A stretch of 48,372 nucleotides of DNA. It comes from Halorubrum lipolyticum DSM 21995. Lineage in GTDB: Archaea > Halobacteriota > Halobacteria > Halobacteriales > Haloferacaceae. The notes beneath the pieces were generated by a model. The model was not told where the DNA came from. It worked only from the letters and a program-made list of their open reading frames with translations, and made no database searches. The translations under genes were made by a program, and so were the position numbers. Each line of letters opens with the position of its first letter. Position 1 is the first letter of the stretch. Of this stretch, positions 2,374-28,034 are shown one piece after another. The stretch is taken from NCBI RefSeq assembly GCF_000337375.1, contig NZ_AOJG01000030.1:66585-114956 (forward strand), in the 5' to 3' direction.

Positions 2374-3657
2374 ATGGACGTACTGGAGGTCGCGGCGCGG
2401 GCGACCGGGACGGGACCGGTGTGCGACGCGTGTCTCGGACGCCTCGTCGCCGACCGGAGCTTCGGGCTGTCGAACGCCGAGCGCGGCTCGGCGCTGCGGG
2501 TCTCGCTCTCGCTGCGCGACGACGAGGACCACGAGCCGGTCGAGACGGGAGACTGCTGGGTCTGCGAGGGGCGCTGCACCGAGTTCGACGAGTGGGCCGA
2601 GCGCGCCGCCGAGGCGGTCGAGGGGACGGAGTTCGCCACCTACAACGTCGGCACCCGCCCCCCGCCGCTGATCGAGGAGAACGAGGCGCTGCTCCGCGAG
2701 GAGGCCGGGCTCGACGACGACGCGGGCGAGCCGTTCAAATCGGAGTTCAACCGCGAGGTCGGCAAGCGGTTCGGCCGGCTCACGGGCGCGGAGGTCTCCT
2801 TCGACCGCCCGGACGTGCAGTTCACGATCGATCTGGCCGAGGACGCGATCGACGCGAAGGTGAACTCCACGTTCGTCTACGGGAGGTACAGAAAGCTGGA
2901 ACGCGACATCCCCCAGACCGAGTGGCCCTGTCGCGAGTGCAAGGGCTCGGGGCGACAGGGCGCGGACCCGTGCGACCACTGCGGCGGCTCCGGCTACCTC
3001 TACGACGACAGCGTCGAGGAGTACACCGCGCCCGTCGTCGAGGACGTGATGGACGGCACGGAGGCGACGTTCCACGGCGCGGGCCGCGAGGACGTGGACG
3101 CCCTCATGCTCGGTACCGGGCGCCCGTTCGTGATCGAGGTCGAGGAGCCGCGCCGGCGCCGGGTCGACGTCGAGCGCCTGCAGAGCGACATCAACGCCTT
3201 CGCCGACGGCGCCGTCGAGGTCGAGGGGCTCCGGCTCGCGACCTACGACATGGTGGAACGCGTGAAGGAACACGACGCCGCGAAGCGCTACCGCGCGGAG
3301 GTGACCTTCGACGCCGACGTGGACGACGACGCGCTCGCCGCCGCGATCGACGAACTCGAGGGGACGACCGTCGAGCAGTACACCCCGAACCGGGTGGACC
3401 ACCGCCGCGCGAGCATCACCCGCGAGCGCGATGTGTACGAGGCGACCGCCGAACTCGACGACCCGCGGCACGCGACCGTCGAGATCCGCGGCGAGGGCGG
3501 GCTCTACATCAAGGAGCTGATCTCCGGCGACGAGGGCCGGACCGACCCGAGCCTCGCCGGACTGCTCGGCGTCGGCGCCGCGGTCACCGCGCTCGACGTG
3601 GTCGCCGTCGAGGGCGAAGCCGAGCCGTTCGAGCGCGAGGAGTTCTTCCGAGACTGA
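2374..3657 (+). CDS. pus10: tRNA pseudouridine synthase Pus10
   Basis: 427 residues. Pus10 isomerises U54 and U55 of archaeal tRNA to pseudouridine. The N-terminus has two Cys pairs (VCDACLGR and CWVCEGRC) for zinc, followed by a THUMP-like region. A second Cys-rich insert (CRECKGSG...CDHCGGSG, about residues 190-208) is typical of the family. The catalytic motif follows, in GAGREDVDALMLGTGRPFVIEV, with the aspartate in GREDVDA. The C-terminal GEGGLYIKELISGDEGRTDPSLAGLLG is the conserved pseudouridine synthase end. The length is normal. ATG 2374 gives a start directly on the zinc domain. Confidence 0.93.
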   Translation: MDVLEVAARATGTGPVCDACLGRLVADRSFGLSNAERGSALRVSLSLRDDEDHEPVETGDCWVCEGRCTEFDEWAERAAEAVEGTEFATYNVGTRPPPLIEENEALLREEAGLDDDAGEPFKSEFNREVGKRFGRLTGAEVSFDRPDVQFTIDLAEDAIDAKVNSTFVYGRYRKLERDIPQTEWPCRECKGSGRQGADPCDHCGGSGYLYDDSVEEYTAPVVEDVMDGTEATFHGAGREDVDALMLGTGRPFVIEVEEPRRRRVDVERLQSDINAFADGAVEVEGLRLATYDMVERVKEHDAAKRYRAEVTFDADVDDDALAAAIDELEGTTVEQYTPNRVDHRRASITRERDVYEATAELDDPRHATVEIRGEGGLYIKELISGDEGRTDPSLAGLLGVGAAVTALDVVAVEGEAEPFEREEFFRD

Positions 3658-3711
3658 CACGTCGGATTCGGGACCAACGGGATTTATCAGACGCACGTCT
3701 GACGGTAGGGC

Positions 3712-4359
3712 ATGAACGGGAGCGACGCCGACGGCGGGAGCGGGGGCGGCGGAGCGGCCGACGCGGGGGTCGACGAGGAGCCGAACGCGCTCGAGGACGC
3801 CCCGCGCGTCGGCGAGCCGGTCGTCGAATCGGCCGTGGCGGAGGCGGCCGCGGCGACGCCGACCGCGGCCGGCGCGACGCTCGAGGGGCTCGACCGCGCG
3901 ACGCGGCTGGACCGCGTCTCCTCGGTCCTCGTCGCGGTCGGTCCGGGGCCCCACTCGGGGGCGACCGTCGACGTGGCGCGGGCGGTCGCGGACGCGACCG
4001 ACGCGTGGCTCGAGCTCTTCCACGTCGTCCCCACCGACGCCGCGCTCGCCGACGCCTCGGAGCCCGGAACCGGCGACCCCGACGACTACGGCGCGACCGG
4101 CGAGCGGCTCCTCGACGCCGCCCGCGACCGCCTCGGGGGGTTCGATCGGGTCGACCGCTGGCTCGTCGAGGACCGGTCGGCCGCGGGCGCGATCGTCGAG
4201 CAGTCGCCGTACTACGACCTCGTGGTCGTCGGCGCTCCCACGACGGGGACCGTCGGGCGCTTCGTCTTCGGCTCCACGACCGACACCGTGATCGACGACG
4301 CCGAGGTCCCGGTGGTCGTCGTCGAGGCGGACGGGGAGACCGCCCTCGACGCGGCGTAG
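3712..4359 (+). CDS. universal stress protein (UspA family) with acidic N-terminal extension
   Basis: 215 residues. The first 70 or so are a low-complexity Gly/Asp/Ala-rich extension with no recognisable domain. The Usp alpha/beta fold starts at RVSSVLVAVGPGPHSGATVDVARAVADATDAWLELFHVVP and ends in DLVVVGAPTTGTVGRFVFGSTTDTVIDDAEVPVVVVEA. The GAPTTG...GRFVFGS segment corresponds to the nucleotide-binding loop of ATP-type Usps. It stands alone between pus10 and the Lrp gene, with a TATA-like ATTTATCA about 28 nt before the ATG. The role in stress is known only at family level. Confidence 0.85.
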   Translation: MNGSDADGGSGGGGAADAGVDEEPNALEDAPRVGEPVVESAVAEAAAATPTAAGATLEGLDRATRLDRVSSVLVAVGPGPHSGATVDVARAVADATDAWLELFHVVPTDAALADASEPGTGDPDDYGATGERLLDAARDRLGGFDRVDRWLVEDRSAAGAIVEQSPYYDLVVVGAPTTGTVGRFVFGSTTDTVIDDAEVPVVVVEADGETALDAA

Positions 4360-24506: not shown

Positions 24507-25913
24507 TCAGTCGTGCGAGTGACTGTGCGCGCCGTGGTCGTGGGCGGCGTCGTCGCCCTCGTCGTCGTGCGTGTGGTCCTGCCCGTCGGGGTCGGTCTCG
24601 CCGAGCACCTCCGCGCCCTCCCCGTCGATCATGTCCATATTCTTGAGGTTGTCCCGCTCCTCGAAGTCCTCGACGGCCTCCATCACGTCCTCCTGGGTGA
24701 TCGTCATCCGGTCCTCGGTGAGCGCGCCGAGGACCGCCTCGCGGAGCACCATCCGGAGGTCAGAGCCCGTGAGCCCGGTCGTTCGGTCGGCGACCTCCTC
24801 GGGGTCGAAGTCCGCGATCTGCATCTCGCGGGTGACCACGCGGAGGATGTCCGCGCGCATGTCGCGGTCGGGCTTGGGGAAGTTGACGATCTCGTCGAAG
24901 CGGCGCCACGCGGCCGCGTCGAGCTGGTCCGGGTGGTTGGTCGCGCCGATGAGGAGGACCTCGTCGCGCACGAGCGACACCTCGTCGATCGACTTGAGGA
25001 GGGTGTTGACCGCGCGCTTCAGGGCGGCGTGCTCGTCGGAGCGCCGGGTCTTCGCCACCGAGTCGAACTCGTCGATGAAGAGGATACACGGGGAGAGTCG
25101 CTTGGCGACCTCGAACGTCTTCTCGACGTTCTTCGCGGTCTCGCCGAGGTACTGGCTCGTGATCATCGACATCTTCACCTCGACGAGCGGGATTCCGAGC
25201 TCGTGGGCGAGAGCCCGCGAGACTGTCGTTTTTCCGGTTCCGGGCGGGCCGACGAACAGGAGCTTCCCGATCTCGCGGAGGCCGATGCTCGCGAGGTACT
25301 CGCGGTGTTCGATCGCCTTGACGATCTTCTGGATCTCGCCCTCCTGGTCGCCGGTGAGCACGAGGTCGGCGAGCGTCGTCTCGATCTCCTCGGGCGCGCG
25401 GACGTTGACGAGGTCGAGCATCTCGCCGTCCTCGTCCTCGTCGAAGTACTCCTCGAGGAGCGCGTCGATCCAGACGCGGTCGGCCTGGATCGGGCGGACG
25501 CTGTCGCGCGCCTCCTCGTGGCTCACGGGCGCGTCGAGGTCCTCGGCGAGCTCGAGCGCGGCGACGATCGTCGGGTTGGCGGCGACCCGCTCGTCGTCGG
25601 CGTGGTCGCGATACCACTCCAGCGCCATGGCGGGCTGGGTCAGGGATATCTCGCCGGAGAACTCCGTCCGCTGGGTGAAGAGGAGGTCGGAGACGGCGTC
25701 CCAGGGGTGGTCGACGCCCGTCGCGGTGCGGGTCGTCTCGCTCGTCGCCTTGAGCGGCCGCTCGACGCCGCCCAGAGCGTCGTCGGGGGTGTCGTCGGAC
25801 CAGAACACCTGCCGGAAGCGCGGCGGCAGGTCGTTCTCGTCGAGGTCGCGGTTCTCGGTGTAGAGGTGCGTCGTCAACACGAACTCGACGACGTCGAGCG
25901 CCGGGTCACTCAT
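24507..25913 (-). CDS. AAA-family ATPase with His-rich tail
   Basis: 468 residues. An N-terminal domain of about 190 residues, not recognised, precedes a single AAA module: Walker A GPPGTGKT (222-229, K228), Walker B ILFIDEFDS (277-285), sensor 1 GATNHPDQLD followed by the WRRFDE arginines, and the helical lid TGLTGSDLRMVLREAVLGAL. The lid resembles that of proteasome/FtsH/Vps4-type unfoldases. The tail ends in HDHGAHSHSHD, a possible metal-binding stretch. It stands alone; substrate unknown. Confidence 0.85.
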   Translation of the reverse strand: MSDPALDVVEFVLTTHLYTENRDLDENDLPPRFRQVFWSDDTPDDALGGVERPLKATSETTRTATGVDHPWDAVSDLLFTQRTEFSGEISLTQPAMALEWYRDHADDERVAANPTIVAALELAEDLDAPVSHEEARDSVRPIQADRVWIDALLEEYFDEDEDGEMLDLVNVRAPEEIETTLADLVLTGDQEGEIQKIVKAIEHREYLASIGLREIGKLLFVGPPGTGKTTVSRALAHELGIPLVEVKMSMITSQYLGETAKNVEKTFEVAKRLSPCILFIDEFDSVAKTRRSDEHAALKRAVNTLLKSIDEVSLVRDEVLLIGATNHPDQLDAAAWRRFDEIVNFPKPDRDMRADILRVVTREMQIADFDPEEVADRTTGLTGSDLRMVLREAVLGALTEDRMTITQEDVMEAVEDFEERDNLKNMDMIDGEGAEVLGETDPDGQDHTHDDEGDDAAHDHGAHSHSHD

Positions 25914-26030
25914 CCGCGCGACGTAGCCGCGGGAGGCGGTTAAGCGCGTCGAACCGCGGCCGCGAGCGGCGGCGAGGGAGGGACCGGAGCGCCGGTCCGC
26001 CCGCGGATCGCGCGGGCGCCGTATCGAACG

Positions 26031-26038: not shown

Positions 26039-26061
26039 CCCTGGTGATCGACCTACTTCGC

Positions 26062-26658
26062 ATGAGCTCCGAGGACGCGGCCGCGGCCGGCGATTCCGCC
26101 GGTGAGGCCGGCACCGACACGGACCACGAGAACGCGCTCCAGGACGTGATCGCCGTCGACCCCGACGACGTGGAGCAGGGGACGGTGAACCGGCTCGACG
26201 CCCACACCGGCGACGGGATCCGCCACCGGGCGTTCACCTGCCTCGTGTACGACACGGACGACCGAATCCTGCTGGCCCAGCGCGCGCCCACCAAGCGGCT
26301 GTGGGACGGCCACTGGGACGGGACGGTCGCCTCTCACCCCGTCGAGGGGCAGTCGCAGGCGGACGCGACCGAACAGCGCCTCGAGGAGGAGCTGGGGATC
26401 ACTCCGGACCAGTACGACGACCTCCGGGTGACGGACAAGTTCGAGTACAAGCGCTACTACCCCAACGAGGGCGTCGAGTGGGAGGTCTGCTCGGTGCTGA
26501 AGGTGACCTTAGACGACACCTCCCTCGATCCCGACGAGGCGGAGATCGGCGGCATGCTGTGGGCCGACTACGAGCACCTCCACGAGAACCCGGCGTTGTA
26601 CCGCCAGCTCCGCCTGTGCCCGTGGTTCGAGATCGCGATGCGGCGCGACTTCTCCTGA
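26062..26658 (+). CDS. idi: type I isopentenyl-diphosphate isomerase-like Nudix protein lacking the catalytic Cys
   Basis: 198 residues. Relative to E. coli Idi the metal ligands are all present: the two His of AHTGDGIRHRAF, H92 in VASHP and the Glu pair in EWEVCSV. The Nudix-like helix is EGQSQADATEQRLEEELGI. The position of catalytic Cys67 (NSVCGHP in E. coli) is alanine, A90 in GTVASHP. Idi interconverts IPP and DMAPP for isoprenoid lipids. Without the Cys the normal isomerase chemistry should fail, so either the mechanism differs or the protein has another role. A type II enzyme elsewhere could do the isomerisation. Confidence 0.85.
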   Translation: MSSEDAAAAGDSAGEAGTDTDHENALQDVIAVDPDDVEQGTVNRLDAHTGDGIRHRAFTCLVYDTDDRILLAQRAPTKRLWDGHWDGTVASHPVEGQSQADATEQRLEEELGITPDQYDDLRVTDKFEYKRYYPNEGVEWEVCSVLKVTLDDTSLDPDEAEIGGMLWADYEHLHENPALYRQLRLCPWFEIAMRRDFS

Positions 26659-26741: not shown

Positions 26742-27497
26742 ATGACCGTCGTCGCCGTGCTTGCGAAGCCGCCCCGCGAGGGGCTCGTCGCGACCGGGCT
26801 CGCGGAGTCGACGCCGCTGTCGACCGCCGAGGCCGCCGAACTGTACGAGGCGCTGTTCCGCGACGCCGTCCTCGCGGTCGACCGCTCCGGCGGCGAGCTC
26901 CTCGTGAACTACCCGGTCGACGACGACCTCCCGGCCGAACACCGCACAGACACCTCGCCCGAGGCCGAGCTGCGCGCCCTCGTGGCCGACACCCTCGGCG
27001 GCACCGAGGAGGTCCGGTTCGAGCGGCAGGTCGGGTCGTCGTTCGGCGCGCGCGCCGGAAACACTGTCACCCACCTGCTCCGCGAGGAGAACGCCGACTC
27101 GGTCGCGGTCGTCACCCCGCAGGCGCCGATGCTCTCGCGGACCGTCATCGACTCCGCCGCGATGAAGCTCCGGACGAACGAGGTCGTCCTCGGCCCCTCG
27201 ACCCGCGGACGCACCTACTACGCCGGCTTCACCGCCCCCATCGACTTCGACGGCGCCTTCGAGGACCCCGGCCTCCCGACGCTCGCGGCGCGCGGGGCCG
27301 ACGCCGACCTCGACGTGGAGTTCCTGGCGTCGTCGCCCTCGATGGTTGACGGGGACGACCTGCTCGACGCCGTCCCGCTGCTCCGCGCCCGGTTCGCCGC
27401 CGAGCGCGTGGTCCCAGACTACACCGCGGCGTTCGTCCACGAACACGGCCTCGACGTGGTGGTCGAGGACGGGGAGGCACGGGTCGTCCGAGACTGA
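26742..27497 (+). CDS. DUF2064-type nucleotidyl/glycosyltransferase-like protein
   Basis: 251 residues. It opens VVAVLAKPPREGLVATGLAESTPLSTAEAAELYEALFRDAV, the DUF2064 pattern (K.P..G..KTRL...L....A..LY..FL.D) with the usual basic residues replaced. AVVTPQAPMLSRTVIDSAAMKL and EVVLGPSTRGRTYYAGF continue the GT-A-like Rossmann fold, where the DxD-type position reads TPQAP. The lost acid suggests altered or no transferase activity. It forms a same-strand series with the Idi-like gene and the next gene. Confidence 0.7.
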   Translation: MTVVAVLAKPPREGLVATGLAESTPLSTAEAAELYEALFRDAVLAVDRSGGELLVNYPVDDDLPAEHRTDTSPEAELRALVADTLGGTEEVRFERQVGSSFGARAGNTVTHLLREENADSVAVVTPQAPMLSRTVIDSAAMKLRTNEVVLGPSTRGRTYYAGFTAPIDFDGAFEDPGLPTLAARGADADLDVEFLASSPSMVDGDDLLDAVPLLRARFAAERVVPDYTAAFVHEHGLDVVVEDGEARVVRD

Positions 27498-27563
27498 CAC
27501 GGGTCAGAACTCCGAGCAGCGCGGCTCGAAACCCCGAAAAGGCTCGGCCGCCTATCGCCGGTA

Positions 27564-28034
27564 ATGACCGACGAGAAGGAGGGCACGTTCCTCGTCACGC
27601 ACGCCGAGAGCGACGCCGCGGTGCTGAAAGACGTCACCGACGGGCAGGTGCACACGCTGAGTTCGAACCCCGGGCTCGCGGTCGACGACGCCGTCGAGGC
27701 GACCGTCGCGCCCGACCCGCCGATGGAGGTCACGTATCGGGTCGTTGAGGTCGCCGAGCGGCGCTCCCTCTCGATCGAGGAGAGCGAGGAGCCCCCGACC
27801 GTCCACGAGCGCGAGCTCGCGGCCGAGACGGAGACCGGCGAGCTCGCCCGCGAGGAGCGCGCGGGCGTCGGCGAGGTACACGTGTTGACGCCGCCGGAAG
27901 CAGACACCGCGGACGCGGTCGCGGACGTGATCGACGACCGCGAGGCGACGCTCTCGCGGGCGGCCCGGCTCGGCGTGAATCGCGTCGAGATCCGGTCGGA
28001 GCCGGGCGTGGTCAGCGTTCGGTACCTGCCCTGA
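27564..28034 (+). CDS. haloarchaeal protein of unknown function, probably DUF5812
   Basis: 156 residues. The N-terminal part (GTFLVTHAESDAAVLKDVTDGQVHTLSSNPGLAVDDAVEATVAPDPPMEVTYRVVEV) looks like an OB/beta-barrel-type module. The C-terminal part (GVGEVHVLTPPEADTADAVADVIDDREATLSRAARLGVNRVEIRSEPGVVSVRYLP) is an alpha/beta unit. The family name is from memory. It follows the DUF2064 gene by 66 nt on the same strand. Confidence 0.72.
   Translation: MTDEKEGTFLVTHAESDAAVLKDVTDGQVHTLSSNPGLAVDDAVEATVAPDPPMEVTYRVVEVAERRSLSIEESEEPPTVHERELAAETETGELAREERAGVGEVHVLTPPEADTADAVADVIDDREATLSRAARLGVNRVEIRSEPGVVSVRYLP

Follow-up and report, generated by a model that had tools for sequence, protein, structure and literature searches.

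Can a protein that resembles the type I IPP isomerases, and has alanine in place of the cysteine that is their presumed hallmark and essential catalyst, serve an archaeon as its isomerase? The question is raised by a gene (Table 1) in the window analyzed here, a stretch of 48,372 nucleotides from Halorubrum lipolyticum DSM 21995. Archaea that use the mevalonate pathway depend on an IPP isomerase for DMAPP, an essential lipid building block. We conclude that in this Halorubrum, as in nearly all haloarchaea, the gene very probably encodes the working IPP:DMAPP isomerase, one that has taken the place of the type II enzyme. The isomerase activity is inferred from the distribution of the gene together with operon replacement.

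Table 1. Features of the idi-like gene and its surroundings, and of related loci (positions are those of the window unless a locus is given).
Feature	Position	Strand	Description
AAA+ ATPase gene	24507-25940	-	directly upstream of the idi-like gene, divergent; C-terminal tail His/Asp-rich
idi-like CDS	26062-26658	+	Idi1-like member of the Nudix family (198 aa, starts with ATG); Ala replaces the catalytic Cys
Asp86-Gly87	26317-26322	+	replace E. coli Thr63-Asn64 beside the active site; 81/81 haloarchaeal, 0/8 bacterial sequences
Ala90 codon (GCC)	26329-26331	+	position of E. coli Cys67; residue invariant, with all four synonymous codons in use
Glu139-x-Glu141	26476-26484	+	E. coli Glu114 and Glu116 (metal ligand, catalytic acid)
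Cys143 (EVC)	26488-26490	+	same position as E. coli Cys118; invariant in haloarchaea
Cys186 (CPWFE)	26617-26619	+	E. coli Ser159; Cys in 81/81 haloarchaea, Ser/Thr in 8/8 bacteria
DUF2064 and DUF5812 genes	26742-28034	+	downstream of the idi-like gene, followed by secF/secD
TnpB-like frame, own genome (C41)	L223:656-1870		just upstream of the mvk-ipk pair
Type II idi, Halorubrum genome G027	L049:1216-2550		on a small contig
Frames flanking the G027 type II idi	L049:96-1151, 2707-3942		transposase-like frame and geranylgeranyl-reductase-like flavoprotein

The start methionine of the protein aligns with that of its homologues; a second in-frame start, GTG, lies at 26044. The protein gave a Pfam NUDIX match (9.8e-13), and its best solved relatives are the IPP isomerases of Salmonella, E. 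coli and human. The closest named relative of the gene is the Halorubrum kocurii copy (96%). With the curated isomerase families the scores were below the cut-offs, about 92 versus 105.8 for TIGR02150 and 123.1 versus 127 for NF002995. Other mevalonate genes are unlinked to the gene in its neighborhood. A Haloferax mediterranei gene with 32% identity to the E. coli enzyme has been annotated as idi (PMC6282799).

We aligned the haloarchaeal proteins with only eight bacterial Idi sequences, that of E. coli and seven encoded on plasmids. The preliminary description had placed alanine at the position of E. coli Cys67 and the metal ligands and ExE pair intact around it, and both points are borne out: translation and alignment to E. 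coli Idi put A90 at this position, and H48, H55, H92, E139 and E141, all invariant, correspond to E. coli H25, H32, H69, E114 and E116. Y129 and W188 (E. coli Tyr104 and Trp161) are also invariant, as are R74, K78, R106 and E110 (Arg51, Lys55, Arg83 and Glu87). Besides the Cys67 position, E. coli K21 is the only ligand or substrate residue that is changed, conservatively, to arginine. Four invariant lineage-specific changes separate the haloarchaeal proteins from the eight bacterial enzymes, T63D, N64G, C67A and S159C in E. coli numbering. The type I signature W-x-N-[ST]-x-C-x-H-P is replaced by WDGTVASHP in all aligned carriers. Asp86 lies four residues ahead of Ala90, and Cys186 two residues ahead of the active-site tryptophan; the haloarchaeal proteins have only two to four cysteines each. 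The canonical Nudix box GX5EX7REUXEEXGU is incomplete, with Q105-R106 at the R-E pair and Q97 at the leading E, and the remnants E109, E110, G112 and I113 are kept.

The alanine is not peculiar to this locus, as the preliminary description would have had it. The Ala protein is present as a single copy in 289 of 292 haloarchaeal genomes, and a DNA pattern containing the alanine codon also matched 289 of the 292, missing the same three genomes as the gene search; hardly any of the matched copies is disrupted. An alignment of haloarchaeal Idi1 proteins, proposed earlier as a check, found WDGTVASHP without variation, first in 80 homologues and then across 138 distinct loci. All four synonymous codons (GCC, GCG, GCT and GCA) are used for Ala90 across these loci, and the residue is therefore held by selection on the protein. 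Alanine at the Cys67 position is neither a quirk nor decay; it is fixed throughout the class, in 289 of 289 carriers. Sequencing error or local mutation as the source of Ala90 is ruled out by its invariance in 289 genomes.

Strong matches were confined to Halobacteria among 393 genomes of the phylum, in which four genomes of one non-haloarchaeal genus gave weak matches at the Nudix level only. The search for the Ala form beyond the phylum covered viral contigs, plasmids and E. coli. No match was found on the viral contigs, and the plasmid matches were bacterial Idi proteins of less than 60% identity, of which the seven that were fetched all have the cysteine. In a tree with the eight bacterial sequences the haloarchaea formed one group, with very long branches, and this tree did not identify a donor. 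The IDI1 genes of haloarchaea were probably acquired from bacteria (PMC3533463).

An AlphaFold2 model of the Halorubrum protein had a mean pLDDT of 77.7, with the first 20 residues disordered. It matched human IDI1 (2i6k) with Z 19.3 over 180 residues (rmsd 2.8) and E. coli Idi (1hx3, a chain that also has alanine at the Cys67 position) with Z 19.0 over 166 residues (rmsd 2.7), versus Z 12-14 for most Nudix hydrolases, the exception being YfcD (2fkb) with Z 18.6. The predicted fold is that of Idi1, and a fold by itself is no proof of function.

Other sources of DMAPP were then considered across the haloarchaeal genomes. Type II isomerase was scored with TIGR02151, for which the cut-off is 281. 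In the Halorubrum genome (3.4 Mb, 99.4% complete) the best match reached 20 bits, so the search for a type II idi that the preliminary description had proposed gave a negative answer; a hidden type II enzyme is ruled out in this genome, where other proteins give only such weak matches. Isopentenyl phosphate kinase (ipk) is present. IspH was found in none of the 292 haloarchaeal genomes, which rules out DMAPP formation by the MEP pathway, and type II was above cut-off in 85 of them. Thus about 207 of the 292 genomes, the Halorubrum genome included, have the Ala protein without type II or IspH and therefore no other recognizable source of DMAPP. Annotation by motif or by curated score would leave haloarchaea seemingly without an isomerase.

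Both proteins occur together in 82 genomes, so possession of type II does not usually entail loss of the Ala protein. All three sampled genomes without the Ala protein (G021, G217 and G285) have type II, and no sampled haloarchaeal genome lacks both. The hypergeometric probability of this complementarity is about 0.024, uncorrected for relatedness; because the genomes counted are related, they cannot be taken as independent cases. In the G217 family, two further genomes (64% and 88% complete) also have type II and no Ala protein. G021, G217 and G285 are small genomes (1.9-2.3 Mb) from two families.

The position of the type II gene is informative as well. In G021, G217 and G285 (loci L224, L225 and L226), idi2 lies inside the block rpsB-mvk-ipk-idi2-rnj-idsA-gltX. 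The operon with idi2 in this place is probably ancestral, because the mevalonate genes of methanogens are arranged in this order too. Nineteen genomes that carry the Ala enzyme, the Halorubrum genome among them, lack idi2 in the block; in G001, G003 and G070 most of the rest of the block is in place, with only about 0.2 kb between ipk and rnj. Type II genes of other haloarchaea lie outside the block, for example in G042 and G046. Absence of idi2 from the block and type II copies elsewhere are what replacement by the Ala enzyme predicts, and the case documents a clean non-orthologous replacement in which a type I-like enzyme took the place of a type II one.

The type II gene of Halorubrum genome G027 has a transposase-like frame on one side and a geranylgeranyl-reductase-like flavoprotein on the other, a setting that suggests later re-acquisition by a mobile element. 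In the genome that contains the window, a TnpB-like frame precedes the mvk-ipk pair, and rnj, idsA and gltX were not found within several kb downstream of it, unlike in the intact block.

A different enzyme, for example a Nudix hydrolase acting on isoprenyl diphosphates, was among the readings offered in the preliminary description. We consider it improbable that the protein is such a hydrolase, derived from Idi and acting on isoprenyl or other diphosphates, with some other enzyme as the true isomerase. The loss of the catalytic cysteine from a Nudix domain, the 82 genomes that keep this gene beside type II, and the appearance of plant NUDX1 at a lower rank in the fold comparison agree with it. 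However, the R-E pair of the Nudix motif is gone, whereas the isomerase residues E139, E141, H48, H55, H92, Y129 and W188 are invariant. Were it a hydrolase, about 207 genomes would have no isomerase at all, and the Ala protein anti-correlates with operonic idi2. A decayed or non-catalytic paralogue with a regulatory role would also fit the missing catalytic residue, but this we regard as very improbable indeed, given that every other catalytic residue is invariant and that the gene is single-copy throughout the class with next to no disrupted copies.

The reading of the protein as an isomerase has points against it too: its scores fall below both curated cut-offs, the 82 genomes with both proteins may indicate another role, there may be an unrecognized third isomerase, and the engineered C67A mutant of E. 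coli Idi is reported to be inactive. In the openly accessible literature we found neither an assay or genetic test of a haloarchaeal Idi nor a mention of its missing cysteine. Overexpression of the Haloferax mediterranei idi gene did not raise lycopene, but the step was not limiting (PMC6282799).

If the protein is an isomerase, the type I mechanism indicates which part has to be replaced. There, the double bond receives its proton from a glutamate, and a conserved cysteine acts as the base that takes the proton from C2 (PMC3509576). The missing part is therefore the C2 base and not the proton donor, so that the earlier suggestion of an isomerase with another proton donor stands as far as it supposes a different acid/base, which gene distribution and operon context support indirectly, and fails in the group that it names. 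We propose that a Nudix-fold, metal-dependent relative of the bacterial and eukaryotic type I Idi proteins displaced the ancestral archaeal enzyme, the FMN-dependent type II isomerase encoded in the mevalonate operon. The newcomer would hold the diphosphate and metals in the manner of the E. coli enzyme. Protonation of C4 of IPP would fall to Glu141 with Tyr129, Trp188 would stabilize the resulting tertiary carbocation, and loss of the proton at C2 would proceed without the canonical cysteine. Cys186, Asp86, Cys143, bound water or the glutamate itself may be the C2 base; our guess from the sequences falls on Cys186 or Asp86 before the others, with no ranking between the two.

That the cysteine has moved rather than vanished, with Cys186 beside the active-site tryptophan taking over its role, is possible, although we would not call it probable. 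The strict difference at this position between haloarchaea (Cys, 81/81) and Cys67-bearing bacteria (Ser/Thr, 8/8), the use of both TGC and TGT codons and the small number of cysteines per protein argue for it, but the stem of the haloarchaeal group is long and lineage-specific residues are expected anyway. On the other hand, Asp86 or a bound water may act as the C2 base, or the glutamate may work in a one-base mechanism, and this we also entertain tentatively. Asp86 is invariant and lineage-specific, its neighbor is changed from Asn64 to glycine, and at four residues before Ala90 an extended chain would point both side chains the same way; the known type I enzymes offer no precedent for such a solution. 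Whichever base is used, a whole archaeal class probably runs the essential conversion of IPP to DMAPP on a cysteine-less Nudix isomerase with a relocated base or another proton-transfer geometry, the flavin enzyme having been displaced from the mevalonate operon. If this is true, in cells that seem to have no alternative enzyme, the Idi fold supports at least one mechanism besides the two-base one.

Comparison with known systems places the haloarchaeal protein closest to the type I isomerases of E. coli, Salmonella and human (IDI1). It shares with them the fold, the His/His/His/Glu/Glu metal site, Tyr104, Trp161, the diphosphate-binding Arg/Lys residues and the second-metal Glu87, and differs in Cys67 to Ala, Asn64 to Gly, Thr63 to Asp, Ser159 to Cys and Lys21 to Arg, in an identity of about 27% and in scores under the family cut-offs. 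In human IDI2, serine takes the place of the cysteine. The FMN-dependent type II archaeal isomerase has the same inferred pathway step and an unrelated fold and cofactor. Plant NUDX1 and other Nudix hydrolases have the Nudix fold in common with the haloarchaeal protein, and NUDX1 belongs to the Nudix enzymes able to hydrolyze prenyl diphosphates, but the structural match is weaker (Z about 12.7 versus 19 for Idi) and the catalytic motif is different. The C67A mutant of E. coli Idi (PDB 1ow2, 1q54), whose crystallization is cited in PMC3509576, has the same residue at the site, folds and binds inhibitor, but it is a laboratory mutant without the other haloarchaeal changes.
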